Of a DNA stretch of 25,725 nucleotides, positions 4,898 to 21,668 are shown in pieces. Below the pieces are notes generated by a model that saw nothing but the letters and a program-made list of their open reading frames with translations, was not told the DNA's origin and made no database searches. Position 1 is the first letter of the stretch; each line of letters begins with the position of its first letter. The position numbers were made by a program, and so were the translations under genes. Source of the DNA: a virus; the IMG/VR virus record IMGVR_UViG_3300020347_000028, positions 1 to 25,725 of that record; one strand, given 5' to 3'.

Positions 4898-6510
4898 ACG
4901 AAGAACGCTTAATAGACTATTTACATAAAGACCTCCAAACACTTAAAGGTGATAGAGGTTTATGGAATCAGGACCTACAAGATGTTGTTAGATATATACG
5001 TCCAGGCACAAGTGACTTTTTAAGAAACCTAACTCGTGGTGAATCAAGGCATTACGAGATTTATGATGGAACTGCTTTATGGGCATTAGAGCAATTTGCA
5101 TCTGGACTACATACATACAACACATCTCCTACTGATCGTTGGTTTAGTTTATCTACTAGCGACACTAATTTAATGGAGGACGAGTCTGTAAGAGAATGGT
5201 TAGAGTCTGTTAGCGATACTATATTTAGGGAACTCAGCAAACCTAATGTTGGGTTCAATCAATCAATGCACGAATGTTATTTAGACCTTGGAGCATTAGG
5301 CACGTCTATTATATACGAAGAGTTTGACATTAAACGAGATCAGTTAGTATTTAGAACAATACCACTAGCTCATTGCTATATAAGAGAAAATCATCTTGGA
5401 ATGGTTGATACTTTGTATAGAGAAATGGAAATGACTGTCAGGCAAATACTACAGAAGTTTCCTAAAATCAGAAACAATGAGAAGCTTAAAACAATGCGTC
5501 AGCATGATAAGCTTACAATATCTCATTCTGTTTTTCCATCACAGGACGAAACAGGACAGAAGTTGTCTGAGTCAAAAGAGTTTGTAAGCTTTTGGTTTTG
5601 TAAGAAGTTAGACGATGGTATAACTAAAGATGGTGGAATTTTAAGTAAAGGTGGCTTTGACGAGTTTCCTTATCATGTTCCAAGATGGACTAAATTAGCT
5701 GGTGAAGTTTACGGTAGAAGTCCAGGAAGAACAGCTTTACATGATATACGAGTAATTAATGCAGTCCAACGACAAGTGTTAATGAAAGGGGATCAACAAA
5801 TTAATCCAAGCTTAGAAATTGAAGATGATTCAATTATTGGAGATGTTGCAACAGGGAGTGGATCTATTATATGGAAAGAACCTGGTTCAGCACAAATTAG
5901 ACCTGTTGAGACTGGTGGTAGACTTGATTGGGTTGATTACACAATGTCTAGGTTAGAAAAGAAGATTAATGAAGCTTTTCACGTTGATTGGTTATTGCGT
6001 CAAAGAAAGAATGAACGTCAAACAGCATTTGAAGTAGCTGACGAAAGAGACGAGAAATTAAGAATGATGTCTCCTATGCTTGGAAGATTGCAAGTTGAGT
6101 TGTTCGGTCCATTGATACAACGGTCATATAATCTTATGGCAGAGCAAGGTAAATTTGCTGAACCTGATGTAGAATTAGGAACTTTAGAGATTAAATACAC
6201 ATCTCCAGCAGCAAAAGCACAGTTTTCAGTCAAATCTCAAAATTCAAGACGATATATAGAAGAGTTATCTTTACTAGCACAATTAGATCCTAATGTAATT
6301 GATGTTATTGATACCGATGCACTTTCACTCGCAATGGCACAGTGGTCTGACATTTCCACTAAAACCACAAGAACACCAGAAGAAATACAAGAGTTGAGAC
6401 AAGCTAAAGCAGAAAATGAAGCCAGACAAATGGCGGTAAACAATGCACCACTAGAAGCATCTGCTGTTAAAGACTTAGCTCAAGCTCGAAGTATGGAACA
6501 AAACATATGA
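4894..6510 (+). CDS. Portal / head-to-tail connector protein, 538 aa
   Basis: The product belongs to the T7 gp8-type head-tail connector family (Pfam Head-tail_con), the dodecameric ring through which DNA enters and leaves the capsid. Typical features are an N-terminal helix leading to DVVRYIRPGTSDF, ASGLHTYNTSPTDRWFSL (about 69-86, the family's 'SGL..TxPxxxWF' signature), the helical NQSMHECYLDLGALGTSIIY segment, and a C-terminal stem/crown with MLGRLQVELFGPLIQRSYNL. Length matches the family (about 535 aa in T7). Start is GTG at 4894, which overlaps the preceding TGA as GTGA. The last four bases overlap the next ATG. It would bind TerL during packaging and tail tubular protein A afterwards. 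Confidence 0.93.
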   Translation: MNEERLIDYLHKDLQTLKGDRGLWNQDLQDVVRYIRPGTSDFLRNLTRGESRHYEIYDGTALWALEQFASGLHTYNTSPTDRWFSLSTSDTNLMEDESVREWLESVSDTIFRELSKPNVGFNQSMHECYLDLGALGTSIIYEEFDIKRDQLVFRTIPLAHCYIRENHLGMVDTLYREMEMTVRQILQKFPKIRNNEKLKTMRQHDKLTISHSVFPSQDETGQKLSESKEFVSFWFCKKLDDGITKDGGILSKGGFDEFPYHVPRWTKLAGEVYGRSPGRTALHDIRVINAVQRQVLMKGDQQINPSLEIEDDSIIGDVATGSGSIIWKEPGSAQIRPVETGGRLDWVDYTMSRLEKKINEAFHVDWLLRQRKNERQTAFEVADERDEKLRMMSPMLGRLQVELFGPLIQRSYNLMAEQGKFAEPDVELGTLEIKYTSPAAKAQFSVKSQNSRRYIEELSLLAQLDPNVIDVIDTDALSLAMAQWSDISTKTTRTPEEIQELRQAKAENEARQMAVNNAPLEASAVKDLAQARSMEQNI

Positions 6511-6842
6511 GCAAAGAAATAGAAGACAAAGTACAAAAGATTAGAGAGATAGAGTTACAGAAGAAATCATTTAAAAAAATATTCCGAGGTAGGAACGGAA
6601 AACTAGCAATGACTATGTTAGAAAGTTTGTGTTATTACAATACTTCTACATACGTAAAAGGAGATCCACAAGGCACTGCTTTAAATGAAGGTGTTCGGAA
6701 TACGTTGCTTAAAATAAAGGATTTTATATCTACACCAGACAGTGAGTTTGAGCGTAGATCCGAAGCAAAAATCAAAACATTAAGACATGAGCGAAGAACA
6801 AACGATGGAATCAGCAGTAGCTACACAGTCTTCACCGACTGA
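6507..6842 (+). CDS. Small protein resembling the Bbp19-like phage family, 111 aa
   Basis: The 111-aa basic protein has a central region, about residues 27-75 (RGRNGKLAMTMLESLCYY to EGVRNTLLKIKDFI), with the pattern 'GxxxLxxL ... DPxxTAxxEGxRxxLLxI' that I associate with the Bbp19-like phage family found between portal and scaffold/capsid genes. No enzymatic role is established for that family. The start overlaps the portal stop (ATGA). Its last 56 nt overlap the scaffold gene in another frame; the C-terminal tail there (ERRTNDGISSSYTVFTD) looks unconstrained, so the overlap may be a relaxed extension. It is presumably co-translated with the portal. Confidence 0.7.
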   Translation: MSKEIEDKVQKIREIELQKKSFKKIFRGRNGKLAMTMLESLCYYNTSTYVKGDPQGTALNEGVRNTLLKIKDFISTPDSEFERRSEAKIKTLRHERRTNDGISSSYTVFTD

Positions 6843-7671
6843 TACAGTAGCTGAAACAACAACAGAACAACCGCAAACTAATCTACTGAACGAGGGTGCA
6901 ACAATTGCATCTGCTGAAAAAGATTGGTTAAACGATATAAGCGAAGAGTTTAGATCAACTCCTTCTATTAGTAATGCTAAAAACATTAATGATATTGCTA
7001 AACAAGTTGTAAACTTAGAGAAAGTATTAGGTAAACCTAAAGTTTCTTTACCACAGGACAACTGGCAAGATTCAGATTGGAATGAGTTTTACAATAAAAC
7101 AGGAAGACCTGAAACAATAGATGGTTATGATCTAAGTTATAATTCTGAGCATATTAAATTTGAGGATAGTGATAAAAACAAACTTGCAGAATCGTTTCAT
7201 AAAGCTGGACTCAGCCAACAACAAGCAAGTGCAGTTTTTACGAGTATTGCTGAGAGGGAAGCAAACTTATCTCAAAGTGTCGAAGAGAAATTCATCGCTA
7301 ACGAAACAAACGCTAGAGAAGTGTTACAAAAAGAATGGGGTGATGATTTCGAGACTAATTTAAAACTTAGTAATGCAGCTTTAAACAAGTTGTTACCTAA
7401 TGATGTTGCAGAACAAGTGCAAGAAAGATACGGAAACGATCCAAATCTAATTCAATTGTTAGCGAATGCAGGTAAATCATTAATGGACGATACAGAGTTT
7501 AAGGGAACGCTACAATCTAGCTCATGGACAAGTCCAGTTGCTGCTAAGTCAGAATTAGATCAGTTAAGGTCTGATCCAGTTTTTACATCACAATTAACAA
7601 ATAAAACAGATCCAGGTCATAAATTTGCTTTAGAAAAATGGACTGAGTTACATAGAGTTGCAGCTAGTTAA
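6787..7671 (+). CDS. Capsid scaffold (assembly) protein, 294 aa
   Basis: Position directly before the capsid gene, acidic composition, and an architecture of disordered Glu/Thr/Gln-rich N-terminus followed by helices fit a T7 gp9-type scaffold, which templates procapsid assembly and is lost before maturation. The conserved signature is LPQDNWQDSDWNEFYNKTGR then PETIDGYDLS (about residues 89-119), matching the 'xP...W..F....GrPe..dgYdl' motif of podoviral scaffolds. The C-terminal end (VFTSQLTNKTDPGHKFALEK) is typical of the capsid-binding tail. The start overlaps the 111-aa gene by 56 nt and has no clear Shine-Dalgarno sequence; an ATG six codons later is an alternative. A terminator follows at 7696. 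Confidence 0.88.
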   Translation: MSEEQTMESAVATQSSPTDTVAETTTEQPQTNLLNEGATIASAEKDWLNDISEEFRSTPSISNAKNINDIAKQVVNLEKVLGKPKVSLPQDNWQDSDWNEFYNKTGRPETIDGYDLSYNSEHIKFEDSDKNKLAESFHKAGLSQQQASAVFTSIAEREANLSQSVEEKFIANETNAREVLQKEWGDDFETNLKLSNAALNKLLPNDVAEQVQERYGNDPNLIQLLANAGKSLMDDTEFKGTLQSSSWTSPVAAKSELDQLRSDPVFTSQLTNKTDPGHKFALEKWTELHRVAAS

Positions 7672-7695
7672 TTGTCTAAATAAATTATAATCCAT

Positions 7696-7727
7696 AAGCC
7701 TTGTCATTAATTTGATGAGGCTTTTTT
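7696..7727 (+). terminator. Rho-independent terminator between scaffold and capsid
   Basis: AAGCCTTGTCA (7696-7706) pairs with TGATGAGGCTT (7713-7723) as an 11-bp stem with two G-T pairs and a 6-nt loop, followed by TTTTTT. It lies 24 nt after the scaffold stop and one base before the late motif at 7729, so it separates the head operon from a fresh capsid transcript. Confidence 0.85.
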
Positions 7728-7728
7728 A

Positions 7729-7760
7729 TTGACAGATATATAGTTATGAATAAATGTTAA
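7729..7760 (+). promoter_or_regulatory. Late promoter-like motif, copy 2 (capsid)
   Basis: TTGA (7729-7732), 16 nt, AATAAATGTTAA (7749-7760): one base different from the right block at 4356 and 20645. It begins one base after the T-run of the terminator and 156 nt before the capsid ATG. This placement equals that of the T7 capsid promoter phi10. Confidence 0.65.
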
Positions 7761-7818
7761 TTTAAGTTTGTCCTCACTATGTGAAGGCTCATTGTCAGAT
7801 TGTCCTGTTTTTGGGGTA

Positions 7819-7845
7819 GCTATCTTAGAGTTAATCGAGGATAGC
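7819..7845 (+). promoter_or_regulatory. Hairpin in the capsid mRNA leader
   Basis: GCTATCTT (7819-7826) pairs with AGGATAGC (7838-7845), 8 bp with one G-T pair and an 11-nt loop, within the roughly 125-nt leader between the late motif and the capsid ATG. A weaker fold lies upstream (CCTCAC, 7772-7777, against GTGAAGG). Such leader stems can stabilise abundant phage mRNAs or serve as RNA-processing sites. The leader ends ACAGGATATAAA-ATG. Confidence 0.5.
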
Positions 7846-7884
7846 AGACATCAAACCAATTTTAATTTTAAAACAGGATATAAA

Positions 7885-8778
7885 ATGTCAAATCAAGTGA
7901 CTACAGCTTTTGCACAGCAATACAGTGCAAACGTAGACCTAATATTCCAACAAGAAGGATCAAGATTGCGTTCTTACGTTACTGAAGATCCAATGGGTGC
8001 GGAATACAAATACTTTGATCGTGTAGGTGCGGTTAATGCGAAACTAAAAGGATCACGTCATGGTGATGTGCAATATAGCGACACACCACAGAGCAGGCGT
8101 AGAGTTTCTTTCGAAGACTTCTACTCAGCAGACATGATTGATAAAGAAGATAAACTCAGAATGATTATTGATCCTACTTCTGAGTATGTAACTACTGCTG
8201 TATATGCTTTAGGTAGACAAATGGATGAAATCATCCTAGATGCTGCTTTAGGCACTGCTTACACTGGTAAAACTGGAAGCACATCTGTTTCTTTTCCAGC
8301 ATCACAACAAATTGCAGTAAATTTTGTTGAATCTGGTGGGGCAACGGACAGTAATCTTACAATCGGAAAGCTTAGACAAGCTATCTTAAAACTTCGTCAA
8401 GCTGAAGCTATTAAAGATGGTGAGACTCCAGTTTGTATTATTAATGCTGCTGCTGAAAATTCATTACTGAGAACTACTGAAGTTACCAGTGCTGATTTTA
8501 ACACAGTTAAAGCTTTAGTTAATGGCGAAATCAATACTTTTATGGGTCTTGAATTTTGCAGAACTGAGTTAGTTCGCAAGGATGCAAGCGGAAACAGTCG
8601 AGTTGTAGTAATGCCAAAGAGTGCTATTAAAATGGCAGTTGCTTCTGACATCTCTGCAAAGGTTGATCCAATTCCTCATAAATTCCACAACTTCCAGATT
8701 TTGGCAGAAATGTCTGCTGGTGCAGTGCGTATGTATGAGGAAAAGGTTGTAGAAATTAAATGTGATCCAACTAAATAA
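7885..8778 (+). CDS. Major capsid protein, 297 aa
   Basis: The product matches the podoviral major capsid type starting MSNQVTTAFAQQYSANVDLI, followed by a run containing DTPQSRRRVSFEDFYSADMI and DKEDKLRMIIDPTSEYV (about residues 70-107), all typical of this HK97-fold group. It forms the icosahedral shell. The ATG at 7885 is chosen because the family begins with MSNQV and AGGATATAAA precedes it; the frame upstream is open to 7768 but runs through the structured leader. Length (about 300 aa) is normal for the group. The gene has its own late motif and terminator context, as expected for the most expressed gene. Confidence 0.92.
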   Translation: MSNQVTTAFAQQYSANVDLIFQQEGSRLRSYVTEDPMGAEYKYFDRVGAVNAKLKGSRHGDVQYSDTPQSRRRVSFEDFYSADMIDKEDKLRMIIDPTSEYVTTAVYALGRQMDEIILDAALGTAYTGKTGSTSVSFPASQQIAVNFVESGGATDSNLTIGKLRQAILKLRQAEAIKDGETPVCIINAAAENSLLRTTEVTSADFNTVKALVNGEINTFMGLEFCRTELVRKDASGNSRVVVMPKSAIKMAVASDISAKVDPIPHKFHNFQILAEMSAGAVRMYEEKVVEIKCDPTK

Positions 8779-8791
8779 GGAGATATAAAAA

Positions 8792-9334
8792 ATGGCTACT
8801 ACAAAAGGTGCAATCGTAACTCTTTTAGACGCAGAACCAAGAGAGCGTTTAGAGCGAGGAACTATTAATGCTAAATCACGTATTTTTCGTGATACAGCAG
8901 CAGTCGCAGATGGTGATTTTGATGCAGATGGAGATGTGGTTTATTTGGCTGAAGTGCCAAGTAATTCTAAAATCGTATCTATCAAAATTGCTAATGATGA
9001 CTTAGATGGAGGCACAGACAGTGTTGTTAATGTTGGATTGTATAATGCAAAACAAACATTCACTACTTCTGGTGCTGTAACATACTCTGCTGATGCAGTA
9101 ATTGACGAAGACGCTTATGCGACATTAGTAACAGGTTTCCAATCTGCTACTGGTTTTACGGATTATGCGTTTGAAGCAAGAGATATTAACAAAGTAAGCA
9201 ATTACGTTTGGGAAGATGCAGGTCTACCAGAAGATCCAGCAACTAACTTGCGTATTGCAATTACACAAACAGCTACAGTATCAAGTGATTCTGCTGGCGA
9301 TGTTTCAATTATTGTTGAGTATACAGAAGAATAA
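8792..9334 (+). CDS. Capsid-associated / head decoration-type protein, 180 aa
   Basis: This 180-aa acidic, beta-rich protein follows the capsid gene after 13 nt with a near-ideal ribosome binding site (AAGGAGATATAAAA-ATG), implying high expression. It starts MATTKGAIVTLLDAEPRERL and contains a DFDADGDVVYLAEVPSNSKI stretch. Proteins of this kind lie directly downstream of the capsid gene in many marine podoviruses and are usually annotated as hypothetical structural proteins; a decoration or head-stabilising role is inferred from position and expression signals. No enzymatic motif is present. It shares the capsid transcript and is followed by the terminator at 9364. Confidence 0.7.
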   Translation: MATTKGAIVTLLDAEPRERLERGTINAKSRIFRDTAAVADGDFDADGDVVYLAEVPSNSKIVSIKIANDDLDGGTDSVVNVGLYNAKQTFTTSGAVTYSADAVIDEDAYATLVTGFQSATGFTDYAFEARDINKVSNYVWEDAGLPEDPATNLRIAITQTATVSSDSAGDVSIIVEYTEE

Positions 9335-9363
9335 TTTCTTTCGAGAAAGCTCATATTAATGTT

Positions 9364-9401
9364 AAAGGGGGAGAGATTAAATTTGTCTCTTCCCTTTTTT
9401 T
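9364..9401 (+). terminator. Rho-independent terminator after the capsid operon
   Basis: AAAGGGGGAGAGA (9364-9376) pairs with TCTCTTCCCTTT (9386-9397), 12 bp with one bulged G and a 9-nt loop, and the 3' arm runs into seven Ts (9395-9401). It lies 29 nt after the decoration-gene stop and before tail tubular protein A, the same place as the T7 terminator Tphi, so tail genes would be read by partial readthrough. Confidence 0.88.
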
Positions 9402-9416
9402 ATGTAGGTTTAAATT

Positions 9417-10022
9417 ATGGCAAGCAAGACAAGTATTGCAAACGGAGCGTTAGTTAAATTAGGTCAAGACCTGATAACTAGCATTACTGACACAAACAAT
9501 AAGGCTGCTCGTATATGTAATGAGCGTATAAATAATTGTAAAGAGATAGTCTTAAACACGAGCTACTTTCATGGCTCCATTAAAAGAACTAAATTAGCTG
9601 CATTAACAACAGTTCCAGCTTTTAAATTTAGCAACGAATTTCAGTTACCAACAGATTGTCTAAAATTGGTAACAGTAGATCCAGAAAACAAAGACACTTT
9701 TTATAGCTTAGAAGGTGGTAAGATTTTGTTTGATGGAACAGAGTTAGAGATAATATATGTTTCTAACATAGAAGATTTTAATTTATTAGACCCATTGGTC
9801 AACGAAGCTATCTCAGCTTGTTTAGCTTACGACATTGCTTATTTAATTACTAATGACAATCAAACGTCAGAAAGGATGCAACTGTTGTATGAAAGAACAA
9901 TGCAAAAAGCTATTTCTGCCAATAACAGACAAAGACGCAGACAAGGTTTCGAGGCAACAGACTTTTTAAATGCTAGATTAATTGGTGGTTACGCAACTAC
10001 TTATCCTAAACCTACAACATGA
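9417..10022 (+). CDS. Tail tubular protein A (T7 gp11-like adaptor), 201 aa
   Basis: The N-terminus MASKTSIANGALVKLGQDLI, then INNCKEIVLNTSYFHGSIKR, is the standard opening of gp11-type tail tubular proteins ('iaNaALvkLGq..I.sl.D....A......y...rd.vL....W..a..R'). Other family features are FQLPTDCLKLVTV and the helical ACLAYDIAYLITND segment. Twelve copies form the adaptor ring between portal and nozzle. Length matches the family (196 aa in T7). It lies 15 nt after the T-run of the terminator and its stop overlaps the next ATG. No strong promoter is visible just upstream. Confidence 0.9.
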   Translation: MASKTSIANGALVKLGQDLITSITDTNNKAARICNERINNCKEIVLNTSYFHGSIKRTKLAALTTVPAFKFSNEFQLPTDCLKLVTVDPENKDTFYSLEGGKILFDGTELEIIYVSNIEDFNLLDPLVNEAISACLAYDIAYLITNDNQTSERMQLLYERTMQKAISANNRQRRRQGFEATDFLNARLIGGYATTYPKPTT

Positions 10023-12451
10023 GAATAAAAGTTACTAAAAACTCTTTCTCAAGTGGAGAAATTAGTCCATTACTAAGAGGTAGGACTGATATACAACAGT
10101 ATGCAGATGGTGTTGAAGAAATGAATAATTTTCTTATACGTCAACAAGGAGGCATTAGTAAACGTCCAGGAACTAAGTTTATCGGTGAGATTGTAGATCA
10201 ACTTAAAAAAGTAAGGTTGCAAAAGTTTGTATATAATAATGAGCAATCTTACACATTAGAATTTTCTCCACTAAAAATCAGAGTATTAAAGAATGAAGGA
10301 TTTGTTACAGATAATGATGTCGCTATTACAGGGGCAACACAGGCAAGCGTTGTGGTTGTTACGAGTAATGCTCATGGTTTTGTTAATGGTGATGTTCTTA
10401 CTATTAGTAATGTTGTCGGAATGTCTCAGCTAAATAATAAAGACTATAAAGTAAGCAACAAAACAACAAATACATTTGAACTAACTGATATGCTTGGGAA
10501 TAACATAAATTCCACAGCATTTTCAGCATATACATCTGGTGGTGTAGCAAATAAACATATAATTATTGATACACCATACACAGAGGACGATTTAGAAGGA
10601 TTAAGTTTTGCACAGTCTAACGATGTTTTATTTATTGCTAGTGAATCACATCAACCTAGAAAAGTTAGCAGAACTAACAATATTTCTTGGACTATCGAAG
10701 AAGTAGCAAACTTAGATGGTCCTTATCAAGCTGAGAATTTAACTGATGCAACATTAAACCCATCAGGAACAACTGGAGTTATAAACGTAGTTGCTTCTGT
10801 TAGTTTGTTTTCATCTACAGATGTTGGCAGAGTAATAAGAATAGCACATGATGGATCTTCTCCATTGGCTGGGTATGGGTATATTAAAACATTCACAGAT
10901 GCTAGTAATATAAGCGTATCTTTATCTAGTAATTTAGGTTCTAGTTCAGCAACAGAGTTATGGAGACTTGGTGCATGGTCAGAATCTACAGGTTACTCTG
11001 GAACAGTTACGTTTCATCAAAATAGGTTATGGTTTGGTGGAACATCGACAGAACCAAATACTTTTTGGGCAAGTAAAACAGATGATTACGAAAACTTTGA
11101 ACCGAATAATCCAAGTGATGCAGTTGTATCAGATGATAATGGTTTAAGGTTTCAGATTGCTAGTGAAGAAACAAATTCTATTCAGTGGATGCGATCAGCA
11201 CAGCAATTCTTCATTGGAACTAAGGGTGGTCAGTATGCAATTAGATCATCAGGAGCTAGTATTACACCTAGCGATATTAACGTAATCAGGCAGAACGGTT
11301 ATGGCTCCAGTATTGTCGAACCACATCTAATTAGTAACTCATTAATTTACACAGATAGGACAACACGTAAAATAATGGAGATGGGTTACAATTATGACAA
11401 TGATGTTTATGATTCTAAAGAAATATCAGTAATTGCAAATCATATTCTTAGACAAGGAGTTAGGGCAATATATACATCTTACAGACAAGCACCAGATAAT
11501 ATTATTTGGTATGTTTTGGAATCTGGCAGATTAGTAGGCATGACGTATTTGAAGGAACAGAATATTATTGCATTTCACAACCATGATATTGGTGGAACTT
11601 ATGAGTCTGAAACTGTAAATTCTGGATATGTCATTGAAGGTGAGACATATAGGATTAAATCAATAGCTGGTAGTGCAGATTTTACTACAATTGGAGCTAG
11701 TAGCAATACAGTAGGAAACACTTTTGTGGCTACAGATATTAGTCCTACCTGGGGTAGTGGGTCACTAGCTAAAGTTACCATTGCACAAGTCAAAGCAATT
11801 ACAACTATTCCATCGGCACTAGAACAGACAGATATTACATACCTAGTAGTCAAAAGAACGATTAACGGACAAACAAGACAATACATTGAGTATTTAGAGG
11901 ATGACGATTGGGCTAATCACGATCAAGACAAAGACAATCTGTTTTTTGTAGATTGCGGATTAGATTATAGCGGTGGTGCAATATCTACTGTATCAGGTCT
12001 AAGTCATTTGGAAGGTGAAACAGTTTCTATAGTTGCAAACAATGGGTCACATCCAGACCGAGTTGTAATAAATGGTGCTGTTACATTACAAGCACCTGCA
12101 ACTAAGATTAAAATAGGGTATAACTATGCTGCTAGTTGCAAAACATTACCTGTTGATGTGCAAGGAGATATTGGATCTTCTCAAGGATCTACAAAGAGAA
12201 TTAGTAAAATAATTGCAAGGTTCTGGAATAGTTTAGGTTTACAAGTTGGGCAATCATTAGATAAATTAGACGATATTGTTTTTAGATCGTCATTAGATAG
12301 GATGGATATATCCCCACCATTATACACAGGAGATAAAAACATATTATTAAACATGGACTATAACTCAGAAGCTGGTTTTTACCTAAGACAGGATAAACCG
12401 TTCCCTTGTAATGTTTTATTTATAACAACTGAAGTAAGGAGTAATTTATAA
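10019..12451 (+). CDS. Tail tubular protein B (T7 gp12-like nozzle), 810 aa
   Basis: The opening MRIKVTKNSFSSGEISPLLR, then GRTDIQQYADGVEEMNNFLI and RQQGGISKRPGTKFI, is diagnostic for the nozzle protein (gp12, about 790 aa in T7), a hexamer forming the distal tail tube and carrying fibre contacts. Two recognisable insertions are present: an FCCH-like beta domain at about residues 105-180 (VVTSNAHGFVNGDVLTISNV ... NTFELTD), and a small beta domain at about 535-583 (EGETYRIKSIAGSADFTTIG, then ASSNTVGNTFVATDISPTWG) of the 'YxIxxxGxxDFTxIGAxxNxVGxxFxAT' type common in phage tail proteins. ATGA overlap with the preceding gene and a one-base overlap with the next indicate coupling. Confidence 0.92.
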   Translation: MRIKVTKNSFSSGEISPLLRGRTDIQQYADGVEEMNNFLIRQQGGISKRPGTKFIGEIVDQLKKVRLQKFVYNNEQSYTLEFSPLKIRVLKNEGFVTDNDVAITGATQASVVVVTSNAHGFVNGDVLTISNVVGMSQLNNKDYKVSNKTTNTFELTDMLGNNINSTAFSAYTSGGVANKHIIIDTPYTEDDLEGLSFAQSNDVLFIASESHQPRKVSRTNNISWTIEEVANLDGPYQAENLTDATLNPSGTTGVINVVASVSLFSSTDVGRVIRIAHDGSSPLAGYGYIKTFTDASNISVSLSSNLGSSSATELWRLGAWSESTGYSGTVTFHQNRLWFGGTSTEPNTFWASKTDDYENFEPNNPSDAVVSDDNGLRFQIASEETNSIQWMRSAQQFFIGTKGGQYAIRSSGASITPSDINVIRQNGYGSSIVEPHLISNSLIYTDRTTRKIMEMGYNYDNDVYDSKEISVIANHILRQGVRAIYTSYRQAPDNIIWYVLESGRLVGMTYLKEQNIIAFHNHDIGGTYESETVNSGYVIEGETYRIKSIAGSADFTTIGASSNTVGNTFVATDISPTWGSGSLAKVTIAQVKAITTIPSALEQTDITYLVVKRTINGQTRQYIEYLEDDDWANHDQDKDNLFFVDCGLDYSGGAISTVSGLSHLEGETVSIVANNGSHPDRVVINGAVTLQAPATKIKIGYNYAASCKTLPVDVQGDIGSSQGSTKRISKIIARFWNSLGLQVGQSLDKLDDIVFRSSLDRMDISPPLYTGDKNILLNMDYNSEAGFYLRQDKPFPCNVLFITTEVRSNL

Positions 12452-13152
12452 TGAAATCTATCACATACTACATTAATAAATATTTAATACATCAAGAACA
12501 TTTAAGGTTTAGTATCTTAAAATCTATTAAAGATTATTTTACAGGTTCTGAAAGTGCTAAAGCTGCTGCAAAAGCAGGGGATGAAAAAGCTGCTAGACTT
12601 ACATGGAATGCAGAAGAAGTTGAGAGAGCACAAGATATTAATGATAAGGCATATATCTATAATATAAATTCACAAAAAATAACATCTGAATTTAATGATA
12701 AAAGCCGAAAAAAACAAATAGCTTTTCAAAATTGGGCTACTAAGCATAACGACACAATAACACTAAGGTCAGGAATGAGGCAGAGAGGTTCGCAAAGAGT
12801 AGCTATGTCTTCAAGCGGAGTTGCTTCTGGAGGATCTATGACAGATGTTATGCGATATTCTGAAATTGAATATAATTTAAATAGGCAAGCAGAATTGTAT
12901 AGGGGTTTATATGAAGTAGATAGATTGTTTGATATAGCATCAATAAAAAAATATGAAGAAGATAATAAAGCTTGGAACTTAAATTTTGCTAGAAGTGAAG
13001 CTAAAAGAAATTCTGCTTTAGAGGCTAAAGATTTAAGGTGGCAAGCAAAAATAGCACATATGGGTGGACAGGCAGGTGCTCAAGCAGCTAAAACGCAAGG
13101 ATTTGCAAACACACTTAACACTGTTATGAGAGCAGCGGAGATGTTTGCATGA
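12451..13152 (+). CDS. Internal virion protein, T7 gp14-like, 233 aa
   Basis: This gene occupies the T7 gp14 position, after the nozzle and before two large internal proteins. The protein is mostly helical, with an Ala/Lys-rich segment (ESAKAAAKAGDEKAARLTWN), the signature LRSGMRQRGSQRVAMSSSGV, then ASGGSMTDVMRYSE (about residues 108-141), and a C-terminal Ala/Gly/Gln-rich region. The motif 'G..rva.a.sGv...GS..dvl' is typical of gp14-like proteins, which are ejected and form a channel in the outer membrane. Start ATG overlaps the nozzle stop (TAATG) and is preceded by AAGGAG at a suitable distance, so the somewhat long N-terminus is probably genuine. The last four bases overlap the next gene. 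Confidence 0.8.
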   Translation: MKSITYYINKYLIHQEHLRFSILKSIKDYFTGSESAKAAAKAGDEKAARLTWNAEEVERAQDINDKAYIYNINSQKITSEFNDKSRKKQIAFQNWATKHNDTITLRSGMRQRGSQRVAMSSSGVASGGSMTDVMRYSEIEYNLNRQAELYRGLYEVDRLFDIASIKKYEEDNKAWNLNFARSEAKRNSALEAKDLRWQAKIAHMGGQAGAQAAKTQGFANTLNTVMRAAEMFA

Positions 13153-15599
13153 GTAAATTACCAACATTTGAAGCAAAAAAAGTAGGAGGTGCATCAGCAG
13201 CACCTGAAATGAGGGCTAATCAGAGAATGATGACTAAGCCTTTTAGAAAATCTACAAATATTAATTCTAGTGATTTTTATAATTCGGCTGGAACTGCTGC
13301 TATGGGTCAAGTTATCAACAATGCGATAAACTTGTATGGACACGTAAAACAAAAGCAAAAACAAGCAGAATTAGAAAAAATTAGAGCAGAAAGAAACTCA
13401 GCTTTTGCTTTGTTTGCGGCAAAACTAAATCAGAGCAATACAGGAAATGAAGATATACAGGCAAATGATTTTCTTGAAAAAAATGAAGAAAAGTATACAA
13501 GCTCTAAGGACAAGCAAATAAAGCAAAAGTTAAATAATGAGTATTTACAACTTTCGACTAATGTAAAAATAAATGCTATAAAAAAAGTAGATGAAAATGC
13601 TACAAAAACAGGCTTATTAGCTTATAGTAATAATTTAGAAAAAATAAAATCAGACCTTGCTGGTGATCCAACTTTAATAGAGTCATCTTTAACAAAGGTA
13701 AGAGCACATGTTACAGAGCTATTAAACTCAGGAATTATAAACAACGAGGAAGAAGCAAAAGAAATGCTTAGAATAGCTAACAATCAATTGCATGACGCTT
13801 CTTTGAAATCAATGGTAAATAAATCTAACACCATTGATAAATTGAATCAAATGCAAGAACCACTAAAAGAATCATACACAAATGGTGATATAACTTATAA
13901 TGAATTTACTGCTATAGAAAATAAAATAAAAAATAAAAAAAATAAAATTCAAGAAATAAATAAAATAAGACTAAAAGATCAGTTTAATGAAATTAATAAA
14001 TCAGCACTTCAAGGAGAAAATCTTTCAGAAGAAGATTTACAAATTTTCGGTCAAATATTTGGACATAAAGAGCTTTTAAAGTTAGAGGATTCCATAGAAG
14101 AAACTACTGTAAAATATCTAGCTTATGACAAGATAAAAGCACCATTATTTATATCAGATGAACAAATTGACTCATATAGAGCTGAAATTGTATTTTCTTT
14201 AAAAAAAGAATATCCAGAATATTCTTCACAAATACCAGGGTGGGTAGATGATGCTTTAAATGTTCGTAAATCTGCAAGAAATGAAGCTATTAAAAATGAA
14301 GATAATAGTGTTATTTATGAAGGCATGGGAAAAATTTTAGAAGGTGATCTTCATCCAGAGGATTTAGAAAAATTTGCATTTGATAAAACTGGAAGGGAAA
14401 GTACTTCAGCAATTAAAAGAATCCAACAAGAATTAAACAAAGATGCACCAGGAACTTTACAAGTTTATATGTCTAAAAGTATGGGTATAGATTATTTCGA
14501 TTTAAATTCTAATGCCAGTAAACTATTTAATCCAAATGTTAGTTTAGAAGATAAAGGCGATATACTTAAAAACATAGCAAATGATTATAAAACCGTAATT
14601 AATAAATATAAGTCTAGTTTACCACATACTGAAAGTTTTTTACCTAACAACATAGTAACATCAGTATCAAATACCTTTTTAGATGATATGCCAGATTCGG
14701 CAGTCAGAAGAAAAGAAACTGTAGGATTTTTGCAAACATTAGTTGGTAAGGAAAACCTTTATGCAGCTAGTAAACAAATAAGCAAAAATTTTGGTAAAGA
14801 TAAAAGTGTTGCAGCAGAGATGCTAGCTATTTCCGATGGATTCTTAAATAGAAAAGAGGATGTTGCAGATTTTATTAATAATGCTAATATTAAATGGAAT
14901 GCTTTAAATGAAGATCAACAAAACCTTATTGAAGTTGACTTTATTAAAGATTTTGCAGATGAAGGTGGAAATGCCTATGATCCTGTATTGTTTGAAGAAA
15001 GAAAAAGATTAGCATTAAAGCTATACTCACAGTCAAAAGATATTAAATCAGCACTATCAATGTCTTTTGATCAATCAACAATACAAGTTCAAGGTTACTC
15101 TTCATCGTTTATATCAATACCTAATTCCTATTATTCAAATTTAAACAGTCAAACTGTAAAGCTAACTGATAATGACAAAACTAAAATATCTGAAACATTA
15201 GATACTGTGTCTGAATTGTTAAGTTATAATATACAAGAAGTAATTTCATGGGATGAAATAGATAAATTTTCATCAAGGCAAGATGGCAAATATACAGATG
15301 TAAATTCTAGCAATCCATTTAAAAGAGAAAAAGCTAGGAAAGCTATATCTGATATGGTTGATGATAAAAGTTTTTATTACAGATTTAATCCTAATGGTAA
15401 TGCAATTTCTTTATATTTTAAGGATAAAGAAAACGGGTACGGTGAGTTAGTAATGAATATGCCTCTTGATAATATACTAGAGGTTAAAACATTAGAGGTT
15501 GAAGATTTTACAGATGTATATGGAGTTATAGGAAACAAAGAAACACACTTAGAATCTAAAAAGAATAGATTAAATTTTATCAAAGATCTCGCTAAATGA
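13149..15599 (+). CDS. Internal virion (core) protein, T7 gp15-like by position, 816 aa
   Basis: A long, Lys/Asn/Glu-rich, predominantly helical protein in the gp15 slot. It starts MSKLPTFEAKKVGGASAAPE and continues with a region containing TAAMGQVINNAINLYGHVKQ and coiled-coil-like KQKQAELEKIRAERNSAFA (about residues 56-95), similar to the N-termini of other podoviral internal proteins. No enzyme motif is recognised. In T7 the equivalent (747 aa) forms the periplasmic part of the ejection conduit. Sequence similarity to T7 gp15 is not visible by eye, so the name rests on gene order, size and composition. ATGA overlaps link it to both neighbours. Confidence 0.7.
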   Translation: MSKLPTFEAKKVGGASAAPEMRANQRMMTKPFRKSTNINSSDFYNSAGTAAMGQVINNAINLYGHVKQKQKQAELEKIRAERNSAFALFAAKLNQSNTGNEDIQANDFLEKNEEKYTSSKDKQIKQKLNNEYLQLSTNVKINAIKKVDENATKTGLLAYSNNLEKIKSDLAGDPTLIESSLTKVRAHVTELLNSGIINNEEEAKEMLRIANNQLHDASLKSMVNKSNTIDKLNQMQEPLKESYTNGDITYNEFTAIENKIKNKKNKIQEINKIRLKDQFNEINKSALQGENLSEEDLQIFGQIFGHKELLKLEDSIEETTVKYLAYDKIKAPLFISDEQIDSYRAEIVFSLKKEYPEYSSQIPGWVDDALNVRKSARNEAIKNEDNSVIYEGMGKILEGDLHPEDLEKFAFDKTGRESTSAIKRIQQELNKDAPGTLQVYMSKSMGIDYFDLNSNASKLFNPNVSLEDKGDILKNIANDYKTVINKYKSSLPHTESFLPNNIVTSVSNTFLDDMPDSAVRRKETVGFLQTLVGKENLYAASKQISKNFGKDKSVAAEMLAISDGFLNRKEDVADFINNANIKWNALNEDQQNLIEVDFIKDFADEGGNAYDPVLFEERKRLALKLYSQSKDIKSALSMSFDQSTIQVQGYSSSFISIPNSYYSNLNSQTVKLTDNDKTKISETLDTVSELLSYNIQEVISWDEIDKFSSRQDGKYTDVNSSNPFKREKARKAISDMVDDKSFYYRFNPNGNAISLYFKDKENGYGELVMNMPLDNILEVKTLEVEDFTDVYGVIGNKETHLESKKNRLNFIKDLAK

Positions 15600-18500
15600 A
15601 CTTATTTTCATCAGTACCGAACGAAGGCAAAGATTTTAGGAAAGAAGAGTTTCAACCAAAATTATCTTTTGGTGACTCAGTAAAAGGTTTTGCTAAAAGT
15701 TCTTGGCAAGACGCTATTACTAACAGTTCTGTTAGAGCTTTTAAAAAATGGATGTATCAGGATGATGGAGAAGAAGGAGGTAGAGTTATTACAAAAGATG
15801 AAGCTAATATTTATTTCCCTAAAGCAAAACCTTGGTCCGATGAAGTTCCTTTAACATTAGCTAGACATGAGCATGAAAACTACATAAGACAAGAAGATGC
15901 TAAGTATTTTAGCGAAATATCCTTGCAAAATGGAAGCAATATTTTAGCTGCTGTAATTGGCAGTGGAATTGGTTATATGACTGATCCAGCCGAATTAAGC
16001 ATGGCAATTGGTGCAGGTGCTATAACTGCAACAGGTAGAAGCTTGTTTGGTGTTACAAGGAACATGGCTCCAGTAGCTAGAACTTTGACTAGAGGAACAG
16101 TTTATGGTGCTGCTGAAAATGTTCCATTAGAGATACCTTATTATTTAGTTAAAGGATATAATGATGAACAGTATGGGTTAAAAGATACTGCTATGAATTT
16201 AGCATTTGGTGGGAGTATGGGTTTAGCTATGTCTGGTTTAAGAGTAAAGCTTGGCGATTTAGATATGCCTGTAGAGTTAAACGCTAAGACTATACAAAAC
16301 AGCTATATTAATAAGCTAATTAACTCTGATGAAGTAAGTTCTGCTAAAATTCTAGCAGAAGATATGAATTTTATCAGAGAGACATATAAAGATGCAATAG
16401 ACGCTATTGTTGATGATATGGCTAATAAAGCAGGGATTATACCTACACCATCTCAGAATAAAATATTAAGAGCTAAAGCTGAAAGGTTAGTTTACCAAAA
16501 AATAAATAATACAGTAACGCATAATTCCAATAAACTTAATGAGGAATTACCAAAAGAAACTGACGAAAGTATAACTATAGATACTGATAATAACATAAGT
16601 CAGGTTATTAGTAGACAATCAGATGCAGATCAAGAGATAGAATCATTAGGCATTAAAATTGAAACTGATGATACTCCAGAAAAACCTGAAGCACCTAAAT
16701 TAAAAAAAGAAAAAAAAGAAGAACCTAAATTAGATGAAGAACAATTAAAATATGAAAATGATATACGAATTGACAAAGCTTTTAAAGATACTGTTCAAGA
16801 GTTTTTTCCTGGTGTAAAAAGTGTAAATACTGATTTAGATACAAAAGTTCCTAAAAAATTAACAGAAGTATTTGAGCGTGAAGGTGCAGCATACGATCCA
16901 ACTACTGATACTGTTTATTACAATCCAAAAAATATTAATGAAGATGAAGTGGGCAAAACTATACTTCATGAAATTGGCATACATAAAGGTATGCGTGGTA
17001 TTATGGATGATGAGGATCTTGTTAATTTGTCTAAATATATGGTAAAAAACCATAATTCTGAGGTCAATTCTATGAAAAAAAGATTTGGCATTAAGGATGA
17101 TTTAGAAGCTTCAGAGGAAGTATTAGCCTATGGATATGAGGACGGAATAACCCCACCAGCTTATGCTAAATACCTGTATGAAAAAACTAGGCAATTAATG
17201 GGTAAATCTACAAGTGGTAGTAAAGCTGTAGATAATGTAGTCTTACAGGAATTAATGTATAGGTCTTTAAAAGATGCGTCTAAACTTAGACTTGTAAACA
17301 GGTTAGGATCTAGTGCAAAGATTGATGATTATACAGTTGAAGAAGCTTATTTTTCTATAAAAAAACAAGAAGAACTAAAAAGAAAATCAGATAATTTTAA
17401 AATTATTCAAGAGTCTATTAATAAAGAACTTATAAAAGAATTTGAAAGTCCTATAGAAAAACTTCAAAAATGGATGAAGTCTGCTGAAGCTGAACAGCAA
17501 AGGATAAAACTATCTAAATCTGAATATAGCAAAAAAATTAAACAAAGAGAATTAGATGCAAAACAAGAAGAACTTGATTATCAAGAATATATAAAAGAAT
17601 TAAAATCTATTGAGTCTAGTAAATCTCCATTAGAAAAACTAGAAGAATGGATGAAGTCTGATATAGCTGAACAGCGAAGAATAGATGATAGTAAGTCTTT
17701 GTATAAAATTAAAAAGCAAAAAGAAAGACAAGATTCTAAAGAAAAAAAGACTAACTATAAAAAGTTTTTAAGAGACTTAGCACAAAGAGAAGTCAAACCT
17801 ATGTTGGCACATAGGGAAATTGAAGCTAAATCAACTGCAAAACTACAGAATAAAGAGTATTCGAGAAATAAAGATAGTATAGTAGACGATCAAGATATTG
17901 ATGATGCTTATGAAGATTTATATGATATGGGTTTAAGCGATCTTAGGTTTAGAAGATCTAATCTCACACCAGAAGAATCTGCTAATACTAAAGCATTTAC
18001 TAAATCTGTTGGTCCTACAAACATGAAGGGCAAAAATGCTAAAGAAAAAAATAAACTCCATAAGCAGAGTCCTAATGATATTGAAGATCAAGAAAACTTT
18101 ACCTCTGAAATTAACAATACATTACTAACTGCTGGTATTGATACGGATAAAGCAGGTAAGGCTTTAAAGAAATTAAATAGAGCAGAAAATGCTATAGCTT
18201 TAGAAAGATTGGCAAATAAGTTTGATGCTATGCCTGAAGAAACTAAAATGATTGCATTTGATAATCTTGTTGAAAGACAAATACCTGCATCTAAGCATAT
18301 ATATAAATTAGAAGCTATTACTGATCTTAATAATAAATTAAAGCAAGCTGGAGGTAATGGATTTAATCATAAAGATGTATGGAAAGATACATTTATTGCA
18401 TCCTACAACAGAAGAAATAAAAATAAAGGAATACAATTAAAAAATCCATCTAAACATACTAAACTAGGTGAGGATATGGATGTAGCCTTGCAATCTGTAT

Positions 18501-20620
18501 TTAAAAATATTTTAGGCAAAGCTAGAGATATGGGTCTTGTAGTAGGTGAGCTAGAAGAATTTGTATCTCCGCAAAGTTGGAATTTAAATAAAATGTCAAA
18601 AATTTTTGATATTAAAGTAGAGCGTTGGAATCCAAAAAAATTTAGGACTGAGCTTATATCAGAAAACTTAAATTTTATAGCTCATAAGATGTATAAAGAA
18701 TTTGATAAGACTGTTATGTGGCATAAGATAATTGATGCTAATGGCAATAAATTAAAAAGAGGAACAGATGAATCTAAAAAATATGTAAGAGATTGGATTC
18801 AAGGTTTATATGATGGAAAGCTTGCTGATTATGAAGGATTAACTAAAGTTCGACAATCAGCTAATACAGCTATTGAACCTAGAACTTTTCATTTTTACGA
18901 TGGTGCAACTGCTTTTGACTTTCAACAAAGATTTGGTGTAGAAGATACATTTAGCGGAATTAATAATAGTATAGATCAAATAGCTACAAAGATGGCTATG
19001 CGTGAAGCTGCTGGACCAAGTGCTGAAACTAATTTATTAAAGATTTTAGATTACATTGGTAACACTGCAACACCTGCAAATAAAAGACTACAAAAACAAG
19101 TTAGAAAATCTCAAGATACTACACCTATTTCTCTTAGACTTAATGCTGGATCACATAGAGTTAAAGATGTTTCTAGTGGTGTTAAAGTATTGCAATGGGT
19201 CAAAGCTTTTACTGCTGCTACAAAAATGGGTAACTTGTTATTTACTTCTGCTTCTGATGCTGCTTATGTCAACGGAGCATTAAAAAGTTTAGATGTAAGA
19301 GAAGGTTTTAAAGAAGGTAATCTTTTAAAAATACTATTTAAGCAAAAACATTTAAAGGATAAGTTTTTACTAGAGCAAAACTTAGCTATGCTTGATGCTT
19401 TTCAAGGAAGTTTAGTTGGTAGATTTAGTCCTGAAGATATGGATATGTCTACAGCTATGAGTAAATTCAATCACTTTATGTTTACTGTAAACGGAATGAA
19501 CTGGCATAATAGAACTGGCAGAGAGATGTTTCAAATAGGTGCAGTCAAAAGAATGGGTTTTGCTAGTCAATATTCATTGGCAGATTTAAAAGCAAAAGAA
19601 TCAGCTAAATCATTAGTATTTAAATTAGAATCATTTGGTATAGATGATGATATGTGGGATATTATGAGAAATGCTGCAACTGAAGTAATTCAAAAAAACG
19701 GTAAGTTTTCACATCAAAGAGGTAAATCTAATAATTCAGTTCTTACATGGGATGAAATCGGAAAATTAAGCGATCAAGAAGTTAAGAAATACTTAGTAAA
19801 AAAAGGAATTAAAAATCCTACATCTACTAGAATAAATACAGAAAGAAATAAATTATCTAACAAATATGCTGCTTTTATTAAAGATGAAATGGATAATGGG
19901 GTATTAACTCCAGGTATTAAAGAGCAAAGAATAACTACATTAGGTCTTAAAGAAGGAACCTGGGGTAATATGGCTGTTAAATTGTTAATGCAATTTAAAT
20001 CTTTTCCTATAGCAATGTATCAAAAGGTGATAAAACCTAATTATGCTATACATGGACCTCTTAAAGGAACATTTAATATAGCTGCTATGGCAGCTCAAGC
20101 TGCTATGATTTCATTAATAGCTGATCAAATTAAACAAGTTATTGAAGGTAAAAGCGTAAAACCTTGGAATGATCGTAGAATTTTTACAGAAGCTGTAGCT
20201 AGGTCTGGAGGTCTGTCTTTTTTTGCGGATATAATTAATCGAGATTATTCATCATATGGAATGGATGGAGATCTTAGAGCTAATTTAGGTGGTCCTACAG
20301 TTGGTCTGTTAAGTGATGTTGCAAGCGTTAGTTCTCAATTTATGAAGGATTTATCTGATAATGATTTTACAAAGTCTGGAACAAAATTTGTTAAGTTAGC
20401 TGATTCTTGGACAGGAAATATAGCAGGTTGGTCACAATTAAAAAAAGCATTAGTTATTCATCCTTTATTAGATCAACTTAATTCAGATACATTAAAAAAC
20501 AAACAAGCTTTTTTAGAAAGAGAGTTTGGGCAAGATTATAACTGGGGTTCTCCAACTGGTGATAATGAGTCTATGACTTACGAAGAATTACTATTTAGGA
20601 TTAATAAAGGAACTGAATAA
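15596..20620 (+). CDS. Giant internal virion protein (gp16-like) with zincin-like metallopeptidase site, 1674 aa
   Basis: The largest gene, in the T7 gp16 slot; the product is presumably packaged in the capsid and ejected into the host. Visible parts: a hydrophobic segment at 116-146 (ILAAVIGSGIGYMTDPAELS); a Lys/Glu-rich linker (about 345-375); a zincin-like region with LHEIGIHKG (His458, Glu459, His463) and EASEEVLAYG (504-513) as a possible third ligand; a 59-residue tandem duplication (from residue 618) in charged coiled coil; and a C-terminal region with LLMQFKSFPIAMYQ (about 1463-1476) and an Ala-rich hydrophobic helix (1491-1518), as seen in large phage polyvalent proteins. The lytic transglycosylase of T7 gp16 is not apparent. 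The site is HExxxH, not HExxH. Its start overlaps the preceding stop (ATGA). Confidence 0.85.
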   Translation: MNLFSSVPNEGKDFRKEEFQPKLSFGDSVKGFAKSSWQDAITNSSVRAFKKWMYQDDGEEGGRVITKDEANIYFPKAKPWSDEVPLTLARHEHENYIRQEDAKYFSEISLQNGSNILAAVIGSGIGYMTDPAELSMAIGAGAITATGRSLFGVTRNMAPVARTLTRGTVYGAAENVPLEIPYYLVKGYNDEQYGLKDTAMNLAFGGSMGLAMSGLRVKLGDLDMPVELNAKTIQNSYINKLINSDEVSSAKILAEDMNFIRETYKDAIDAIVDDMANKAGIIPTPSQNKILRAKAERLVYQKINNTVTHNSNKLNEELPKETDESITIDTDNNISQVISRQSDADQEIESLGIKIETDDTPEKPEAPKLKKEKKEEPKLDEEQLKYENDIRIDKAFKDTVQEFFPGVKSVNTDLDTKVPKKLTEVFEREGAAYDPTTDTVYYNPKNINEDEVGKTILHEIGIHKGMRGIMDDEDLVNLSKYMVKNHNSEVNSMKKRFGIKDDLEASEEVLAYGYEDGITPPAYAKYLYEKTRQLMGKSTSGSKAVDNVVLQELMYRSLKDASKLRLVNRLGSSAKIDDYTVEEAYFSIKKQEELKRKSDNFKIIQESINKELIKEFESPIEKLQKWMKSAEAEQQRIKLSKSEYSKKIKQRELDAKQEELDYQEYIKELKSIESSKSPLEKLEEWMKSDIAEQRRIDDSKSLYKIKKQKERQDSKEKKTNYKKFLRDLAQREVKPMLAHREIEAKSTAKLQNKEYSRNKDSIVDDQDIDDAYEDLYDMGLSDLRFRRSNLTPEESANTKAFTKSVGPTNMKGKNAKEKNKLHKQSPNDIEDQENFTSEINNTLLTAGIDTDKAGKALKKLNRAENAIALERLANKFDAMPEETKMIAFDNLVERQIPASKHIYKLEAITDLNNKLKQAGGNGFNHKDVWKDTFIASYNRRNKNKGIQLKNPSKHTKLGEDMDVALQSVFKNILGKARDMGLVVGELEEFVSPQSWNLNKMSKIFDIKVERWNPKKFRTELISENLNFIAHKMYKEFDKTVMWHKIIDANGNKLKRGTDESKKYVRDWIQGLYDGKLADYEGLTKVRQSANTAIEPRTFHFYDGATAFDFQQRFGVEDTFSGINNSIDQIATKMAMREAAGPSAETNLLKILDYIGNTATPANKRLQKQVRKSQDTTPISLRLNAGSHRVKDVSSGVKVLQWVKAFTAATKMGNLLFTSASDAAYVNGALKSLDVREGFKEGNLLKILFKQKHLKDKFLLEQNLAMLDAFQGSLVGRFSPEDMDMSTAMSKFNHFMFTVNGMNWHNRTGREMFQIGAVKRMGFASQYSLADLKAKESAKSLVFKLESFGIDDDMWDIMRNAATEVIQKNGKFSHQRGKSNNSVLTWDEIGKLSDQEVKKYLVKKGIKNPTSTRINTERNKLSNKYAAFIKDEMDNGVLTPGIKEQRITTLGLKEGTWGNMAVKLLMQFKSFPIAMYQKVIKPNYAIHGPLKGTFNIAAMAAQAAMISLIADQIKQVIEGKSVKPWNDRRIFTEAVARSGGLSFFADIINRDYSSYGMDGDLRANLGGPTVGLLSDVASVSSQFMKDLSDNDFTKSGTKFVKLADSWTGNIAGWSQLKKALVIHPLLDQLNSDTLKNKQAFLEREFGQDYNWGSPTGDNESMTYEELLFRINKGTE
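17447..17775 (+). repeat. 177-bp (59-codon) in-frame duplication inside the gp16-like gene
   Basis: Residues from 618 (SPIEKLQKWMKSAEAEQQRI) and from 677 (SPLEKLEEWMKSDIAEQRRI) align without gaps at a period of 59 residues. The shared pattern SPxEKLxxWMKSxxAEQxRI, then SKSxYxxKxKQ, fades towards the end of the second copy. Codon differences between copies show the duplication is not recent. The units lie in a charged, helical part between the zincin-like region and the C-terminal domain. Confidence 0.85.
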
Positions 20621-20624
20621 TACA

Positions 20625-20656
20625 TTGAAAAATAACGATTAATAAATAACTGTTAA
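20625..20656 (+). promoter_or_regulatory. Late promoter-like motif, copy 3 (tail fibre)
   Basis: TTGA (20625-20628), 16 nt, AATAACTGTTAA (20645-20656), identical in the right block to the copy at 4356. It fills the 40-nt gap between the gp16-like gene and the fibre gene and ends 4 nt before the fibre ATG. T7 also has a late promoter (phi17) at this point. Confidence 0.65.
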
Positions 20657-20660
20657 GATT

Positions 20661-21668
20661 ATGGCAATAACAACAACAACATCAAGAGTTCAATATACAG
20701 GCAATAATTCTTCCACAGTTTTTGCCATTAATTTTAAATTTATTGAAAATTCTCACATTGTAGCAGAACTGGATGACACTGCTGGAACTGTAACAACATT
20801 AGTATTAGACACTAACTATACATTATCTGGTGCTGGCAACGATTCTGGAGGAACTTTTACTGCAAGTGTAGCACCACCTACAGGTCACATATTAACAATA
20901 TACAGACAAGTTCCATTAACACAGACAAGTGATTTAGTTCTTACAGGAACATTTAATTCTCAAACTGTTGAGGATATGATAGACAAAAACACACAAATGA
21001 TACAGCAGTTGGATGTAGGTATATCTGCAACTTCTGGATCATTAGTTTTAAAATATCCCTTATCCGAACCTGCTACAACTGTTAGCGAAATACCTAGCAA
21101 TGCTAATAGAAGTAATAAAGTTTTAGCGTTTGATTCTTCGGGCAATCCTATAGCAACTGATATATCGGCAAGTGGAACAGGTGATGTGATTGGACCTGCA
21201 TCAAACACACTTAACAATGTGCCACAATGGACAGCAGCAACTAAAACTCTGTCAGATGGTCTAGGAGTGTTAAAATCTACTGACACAACAGTAGACAACG
21301 ATAGCAACCTTGCAACAGTTGGACACATCCTAAATCAGATTAAATCGTTAGCATTACCAGAAACAACTACACAAACATTAACTGAGGGTGCAACGGTTGC
21401 ATGGGATAGGAATGCTGGTCATAACGCAACTATTTCAATAGCTGGAACAGTTAGTCTAGGCATAAGTAATTTATCGGCAGGTAGTTATAACTTGCACGTT
21501 AAGAAAACAAACGCATCTGCATTACTTAACTTTACAAGCAACTTTAAATGGGCTGATGGAATTAAGCCGAGCTTGGCTAATGTTAGCTTAAACAATAGTG
21601 CAATTTTTAGTTTTATGAATCCTGGCAATGGCAATCTTTATGGTGCAGCAATTAGTAACGTAAAATGA
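20661..21668 (+). CDS. Tail fibre protein with T7 gp17-like N-terminus, 335 aa
   Basis: Residues 1 to about 130 (MAITTTTSRVQYTGNNSSTV, FAINFKFIENSHIVAELDD, GHILTIYRQVPLTQTSDL, TVEDMIDKNTQMIQQLD) match the N-terminal, tail-binding domain of T7 gp17-type fibres. The remainder is a Ser/Thr/Asn-rich beta structure ending in SLNNSAIFSFMNPGNGNLYG, a C-terminal pattern seen in many phage and host-recognition proteins. At 335 aa it is shorter than T7 gp17 (553 aa), so it may be an adaptor on which the following gene products hang. The start is fixed by MAITTT and lies 4 nt after the late motif. It overlaps the next gene by ATGA. Confidence 0.88.
   Translation: MAITTTTSRVQYTGNNSSTVFAINFKFIENSHIVAELDDTAGTVTTLVLDTNYTLSGAGNDSGGTFTASVAPPTGHILTIYRQVPLTQTSDLVLTGTFNSQTVEDMIDKNTQMIQQLDVGISATSGSLVLKYPLSEPATTVSEIPSNANRSNKVLAFDSSGNPIATDISASGTGDVIGPASNTLNNVPQWTAATKTLSDGLGVLKSTDTTVDNDSNLATVGHILNQIKSLALPETTTQTLTEGATVAWDRNAGHNATISIAGTVSLGISNLSAGSYNLHVKKTNASALLNFTSNFKWADGIKPSLANVSLNNSAIFSFMNPGNGNLYGAAISNVK

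Follow-up and report, generated by a model that had tools for sequence, protein, structure and literature searches.

A putative zincin-like metallopeptidase domain in a T7 gp16-type phage ejection protein

Zincin-like domains and ejection proteins in described phages

Zincin-like peptidases with an HEXXXH motif are a domain type already known from phage proteins (Iyer et al. 2017; PMC5512222): they lie in large phage proteins whose injection is presumed, their HExxxH is followed by a Glu on a later helix, and their core is built from an N-terminal helix, three strands and helices. The domain described here shares these features, but its carrier is a T7/epsilon15-type ejection protein that, unlike typical polyvalent carriers, has no second recognised enzyme domain (no further Pfam enzyme domain was found in it), whereas a prophage relative has PBECR3. 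P1 DdrB, which we liken to it from the literature, is also a virion protein with a zincin-like domain and is proteolytically processed before packaging, a precedent for self-processing (cited in PMC5512222); its carrier is a different one, however, and that its own domain does the processing is likewise a prediction. The C1 domain of the N4 vRNAP of Schitoviridae (PMC12633501) places a zincin-type motif in a virion protein that is ejected with the DNA, but the motif is HExxH rather than HExxxH and the carrier is a giant RNA polymerase, the likeness being at superfamily level.

As to the carrier, T7 gp16 is likewise a large last ejection protein with a conserved C-terminal part, and its enzyme domains, a hydrolase domain among them, are known to move between gp15 and gp16 (Swanson et al.; PMC8954989). 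T7 gp16 differs in having an N-terminal transglycosylase (SLT), which is phage-specific, is absent from P22-like phages and was not detected at E<=1 in the protein studied here, where a peptidase-type domain follows an N-terminal module (N-module). Homologous ejection proteins are known to be packaged and then ejected, and they form a conduit, with the N-terminus of T7 gp16 ending in the periplasm and its C-terminus presumed to reach the cytoplasm, and a protease goes unmentioned in that account (PMC8954989). In the literature searched, mostly outside subscription journals, we found no T7-type ejection protein described as carrying a zincin; the recurrent placing of a zincin as ejection-protein cargo is the new part of this analysis.

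The gp16-like protein and its predicted metal site

The window, that is, the whole stretch of DNA analysed here (25,725 bases, GC 34%), is an IMG/VR fragment of a marine short-tailed phage whose nearest cultured phages, as judged by the tail tube B protein (10019..12451, plus strand like all features below; phrog_376, E 6.5e-184), are Pelagibacter podoviruses, with 38% identity to HTVC035P, while the portal has its best match (35%) in the uncultured ct3Et533. The tail tube B protein, which served as synteny anchor and matches the six prophages described below, also gave a Pfam match to E1_FCCH, a ubiquitin-activating enzyme E1 domain, at aa 108-178 (E 2.2e-13). It is followed by a gp14-like ejection protein of 233 aa (12451..13152), identified by its place between tail tube B and gp15 and by the same order in the six prophages, by a gp15-like ejection protein of 816 aa (13149..15599), identified by position and size and without Pfam or PHROG match or recognisable enzyme domain, and by the gp16-like ejection (internal virion) protein of 1674 aa (15596..20620). 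The last was assigned to the T7 gp16 type through phrog_684 (virion structural protein; aa 906-1657, E 1.2e-59), a C-module profile and the gp14-gp15-gp16 order. Its predicted layout comprises an N-module with hydrophobic stretches, suggestive of a membrane-type segment (aa ~1-300, 15596..16495), an HExxxH zincin-like core of minigluzincin type (aa 381-527, 16736..17176), a K/E-rich charged linker at the junction of peptidase and C-module (aa ~600-821, 17393..18058) in which no Pfam domain scored above cut-off, and a C-module of gp16 type (aa 822-1661, 18059..20578), the span of a profile made from eight phages including the window.

Translation of the ORF 15596-20620 confirmed the two motifs that the initial annotation had read as a zincin-like site, HEIGIHKG beginning at aa 458 and EASEEVLAYG at aa 504-513. 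HEIGIH (16967..16984; codons of His458 at nt 16967 and of His463 at nt 16982) is the sole HExxH or HExxxH motif within gp16, and the second motif contains EEVLA (aa 507-511, 17114..17128; codons of Glu507 and Glu508 at nt 17114 and 17117). Shuffling of gp16 yielded an HExxxH in 1.8% of sequences and an HExxxH with EExxA at the same spacing in 0.005%, but conservation is the stronger support for the motif at the level of sequence. A profile search for homologues gave 53 distinct family members, in which His458, Glu459 and His463 are kept in 53/53, 52/53 and 53/53, and at the second motif Glu508 is present in all 50 ungapped members and Ala511 in 49 of these, while Glu507 is found in merely 42. 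Among the 42 members outside the seed set of the profile the figures are similar (His458 42/42, Glu459 41/42, His463 42/42, Glu508 39/39, Ala511 38/39). These counts are partly circular, as the members were found by a profile rich in H-E-H, a circularity that is tempered because the same profile also favours Gly461 and Glu507, yet both vary across the family. Since Glu508 is conserved and Glu507 variable, Glu508 is the likely third zinc ligand; of the pair Glu507/508 that had been offered for this role, only the second thus stood. We predict that His458, His463 and Glu508 would bind zinc and that Glu459 would activate water as general base.

Profile comparison points to the family to which this site belongs. 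A profile built from 11 phage polyvalent HExxxH domains, with the window and its sister phage L036 (see below) left out of the seed, matched aa 430-518 of the window gp16 (E 3.6e-14, 52 bits) and also L036 (E 2.7e-9), whereas decoys holding an HExGxHxG(L/F)R string, chance ORFs of the kind that made up most of the yield of a pattern scan of genome contigs, scored at most 17.6 bits, and hhalign aligned the window domain with the polyvalent family at a probability of 98.1%. The seed carriers have InPase and MuF_C, LPD22 and PBECR3, or LPD38 and LPD23 in the same protein and are thus polyvalent proteins. With the domain alone, tblastn against cultured phages returned one weak match, to a polyvalent protein of ctsTn925 (3145 aa; LPD38 and LPD23) whose HEVGIH and EEAAAY are spaced much as in the window; prompted by this likeness, we gathered further family proteins via DNA patterns in IMG/VR and genomes. 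The only Pfam match of the domain alone was Zincin_1, below threshold (E 0.042), and no sequence homologue of it was found in the PDB. By these profiles the gp16 domain belongs to the HEXXXH zincin-like peptidases of phage polyvalent proteins, a kinship that the initial annotation had suggested from motif patterns and that also fits the published description (PMC5512222) and the viral structure neighbours.

Structure prediction, proposed earlier as a check of the motif region, returned a zincin topology. A first AlphaFold model from 12 sequences had a core pLDDT of about 80-92 and a low-confidence C-terminus and was then trimmed to aa 381-527, for which the mean pLDDT is 88.4 and the pTM 0.78. 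The elements follow in the order helix, strand, helix, strand, strand, HExxxH helix, two helices and Glu-bearing helix, with HEIGIH on a predicted helix at 449-469 and Glu508 on another at 502-515, and the predicted three-stranded sheet, N-terminal helix and C-terminal helices agree with the core of Iyer et al. (PMC5512222). Large polyvalent-type phage proteins head the nearest BFVD structures, among which an 'internal virion protein D' of ctSH72 also occurs. In the PDB, the minigluzincin-type proteins selecase, jannalysin, IrrE/PprI and TTHA0227 stand near the top (best E 0.14, none significant), in a ranking that also mixes in some M. tuberculosis regulator chains; as these matches are weak, the fold claim rests chiefly on model topology and profile evidence. 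The model thus predicts, with good confidence scores, a minimal zincin topology, and profile, fold and residue conservation together back the earlier proposal that this virion ejection protein has a site of zincin type, predicted to bind metal.

Membership in M49 (dipeptidyl peptidase III), by contrast, is very improbable and was rejected: the HExxxH spacing and the EExxA second motif are as in the bacterial pair HEVIGH...LEEARAD, apart from the Gly directly before the second His, which the window does not keep, but M49 gave no Pfam match at E<=10, the 50 top-ranking PDB fold matches listed include no DPP III, and hhalign against a thin M49 profile (few bacterial rows, one a spurious ORF) gave a probability of 0.8%, comparable to the 0.3% of a reversed decoy and against 98.1% for the polyvalent family. 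The likeness to DPP III noted at the outset is accordingly one of motif style alone.

Modules, cassette exchange and cargo

Within gp16 the zincin sits between the N-module and the C-module, and both of these occur as separate proteins elsewhere. An N-module profile (window, L036 and L038) found a protein encoded upstream of the C-module gene (E 1e-7 to 6e-4) in Pelagibacter phages, ct3Et533, Flu_PA14, Skadi, K300 and Vibrio 1.182.O, and the next profile round added ZCVPP1 and a Pseudodesulfovibrio prophage. The two modules are adjacent separate genes in Skadi, HTVC phages, ct3Et533, Flu_PA14, K300 and Vibrio 1.182.O; SPN1S, YeP5, YA3, Tyrion and phiV10 likewise have a separate C-module gene, the preceding protein there being identified by position only. 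By locus, the C-module is a gene of its own in L004, L005, L162-L168 (L165 being Vibrio 1.182.O) and L170 and in six prophages. A short Cys-bearing tail (...AAAACIxR, ...AAVNCIVKK) ends N-module proteins just before the C-module gene (L005:6553-7827, L004:5650-7242 and the middle proteins of L214-L219). Searches for related loci with gp16 or its parts yielded none, because gp16 diverges fast, while portal and tail tube B queries did find relatives.

In the six prophages, all from Desulfovibrionia, N-module and zincin form a single protein of 811-896 aa, and in 6/6 the order is tail tube B, gp14-like, gp15-like, N-module plus zincin and then the C-module gene. Since the C-module gene is separate here, the combination of N-module and zincin, as read from sequence, is one that recurs independently of fusion to the C-module. 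By eye, a GNAT-like stretch without Pfam match follows the zincin at aa ~560-680 of the ejection protein of a Pseudodesulfovibrio prophage (L100:512-3127). The HExxxH domain was found in 33 of 297 sampled genomes of Desulfovibrionia, the class of the Pseudodesulfovibrio genome, mostly in very large single proteins of 2000-4500 aa, compared with 1/385 genomes in the class of the Hyphomicrobiaceae locus and 11/369 in that of the Burkholderiales locus; none of the domain proteins from the latter two classes carries an N-module.

Comparison with the sister phage L036 (IMGVR_UViG_3300017760_000117) revealed that the whole gp14-gp15-gp16 cassette (12454..20617) has been exchanged as a unit. DNA identity is ~97% across the head genes, the tail genes and the first part of the fibre gene, including both flanks (4627-12454 and 20617-21250), the breakpoints fall at the gp14 start (12454) and the gp16 stop (20617), and protein identity in between drops to 53% for gp14, 29% for gp15 and 34% for gp16. 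Despite this divergence L036 gp16 retains HEVVTHKG...EEVIAY at the aligned place. The exchange hints that the ejection proteins are co-adapted and subject to diversifying selection. A second gene divergent from L036 (65% amino acid identity) lies at 4373-4897, in otherwise ~97% identical surroundings.

Other enzymes occupy the equivalent protein in other phages. An ART-PolyVal domain (E 3e-17) follows the N-terminal region of the equivalent protein in Vibrio 1.182.O, which is homologous to the window N-module by profile (E 5.7e-4 before inclusion), and this small podovirus, whose ejection protein (L165:4845-6545) joins an ADP-ribosyltransferase (ART) to the N-module of the window, probably has an injected ART. 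SLT was detected in BcepC6B (E 2.5e-11), a lysozyme/transglycosylase-like domain in Acinetobacter 4316, SLT with ddrB-ParB in TPWB-05 and ddrB-ParB in an APEC phage, the equivalence of these four proteins being by gene order and shared C-module rather than by an N-module profile link. In one prophage (L189), PBECR3, an RNase, immediately precedes the zincin. The presence of SLT, lysozyme-like, ART or ParB-type domains in the equivalent gene points to a position of varied cargo, and since cytoplasm-acting (ART, RNase) and periplasm-acting (SLT) cargo are both found, the position itself reveals no compartment. In some relatives no cargo domain is recognised, and several have neither zincin nor hydrolase.

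These data bear on the initial proposal that the zincin replaces the T7 transglycosylase. A search for SLT or lysozyme at E<=1 was blank for gp16 and for the gp15-like protein of the window, in agreement with the earlier reading that gp16 has no detectable transglycosylase, and neither domain was found in gp15 of L036 or of six prophages. A replacement is thus supported in part, at a position of varied cargo; a direct swap of SLT for zincin is not supported, zincin carriers are not significantly short of hydrolases (association p 0.28), and mutual exclusion of zincin and murein hydrolase was dropped as an explanation.

Candidate substrates and consequences

We consider it likely that the gp16 zincin is an ejected metallopeptidase domain carried as cargo between N-module and C-module. 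Judged from its T7 and P22-type homologues, gp16 would be packaged, leave the virion together with the DNA and take up a place in the envelope conduit. Among possible substrates we rank the ejection proteins themselves first, at somewhat less than an even chance: the zincin may cut its own or a neighbour's chain, thereby freeing cargo or completing the conduit. That such domains process the polyvalent proteins which carry them has been proposed (PMC5512222), and the processing of DdrB is in keeping with it, whereas the N4 vRNAP, which has an HExxH domain, is packaged unprocessed (PMC5512222), which counts against it. A role in splitting fused N- and C-modules is weakened by the persistence of the zincin where these are separate genes, so that separating the two modules would not be its only use.

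Second in rank, and a distinctly tentative reading, is cleavage of a specific host protein, for example one of defence or of the envelope, by a zincin injected as one of several exchangeable effectors. It gains from the ART-PolyVal of Vibrio 1.182.O at the same place and the PBECR3 RNase beside the zincin, both effector-type, from the diversifying selection suggested by the cassette swap, and from the retention of the zincin in unfused proteins, where module separation would be pointless; it is set back by the relatives without recognised cargo and by the active-site cleft, around which there is no sign so far of rapid evolution. The broader proposal, that ejection proteins of this podovirus lineage hold a cargo position for exchangeable enzymes entering with the genome (zincin, ADP-ribosyltransferase, PBECR RNase, ParB-type domain, murein hydrolases) and that the window zincin, once injected, serves as a protease against a host protein, is one that we likewise advance with considerable doubt.

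Two further readings are improbable to a like degree. As a murein peptidase, the lowest-ranked of the three substrate roles, the zincin would cut peptide cross-links as a stand-in for the T7 gp16 transglycosylase, which would suit both the blank SLT/lysozyme searches in the window, L036 and the prophages and the occurrence of such domains in the equivalent gene of BcepC6B, TPWB-05 and Acinetobacter 4316. Several relatives, however, lack zincin and hydrolase alike, the association is insignificant, the family occurs mostly in polyvalent proteins beside cytoplasm-acting domains, and murein endopeptidases are mostly LAS-type rather than HExxxH. An inactive relic or structural domain would be in line with the P22-like ejection sets that lack the T7 gp16 enzyme domain (PMC8954989), but it accords poorly with catalytic residues kept almost without exception across very divergent sequences while adjacent positions vary, and with the site retained across the exchanged cassette in L036.

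The gp16 zincin links polyvalent effector proteins, whose injection is predicted, with the T7/P22 DNA-ejection machine, whose injection is known, and it singles out Glu508 as a residue to test. Should the cargo position prove real, sequence would suffice to tell which enzymes the ejection proteins carry, and cultured phages or inducible prophages that share the gene order would allow injected proteases to be tested.
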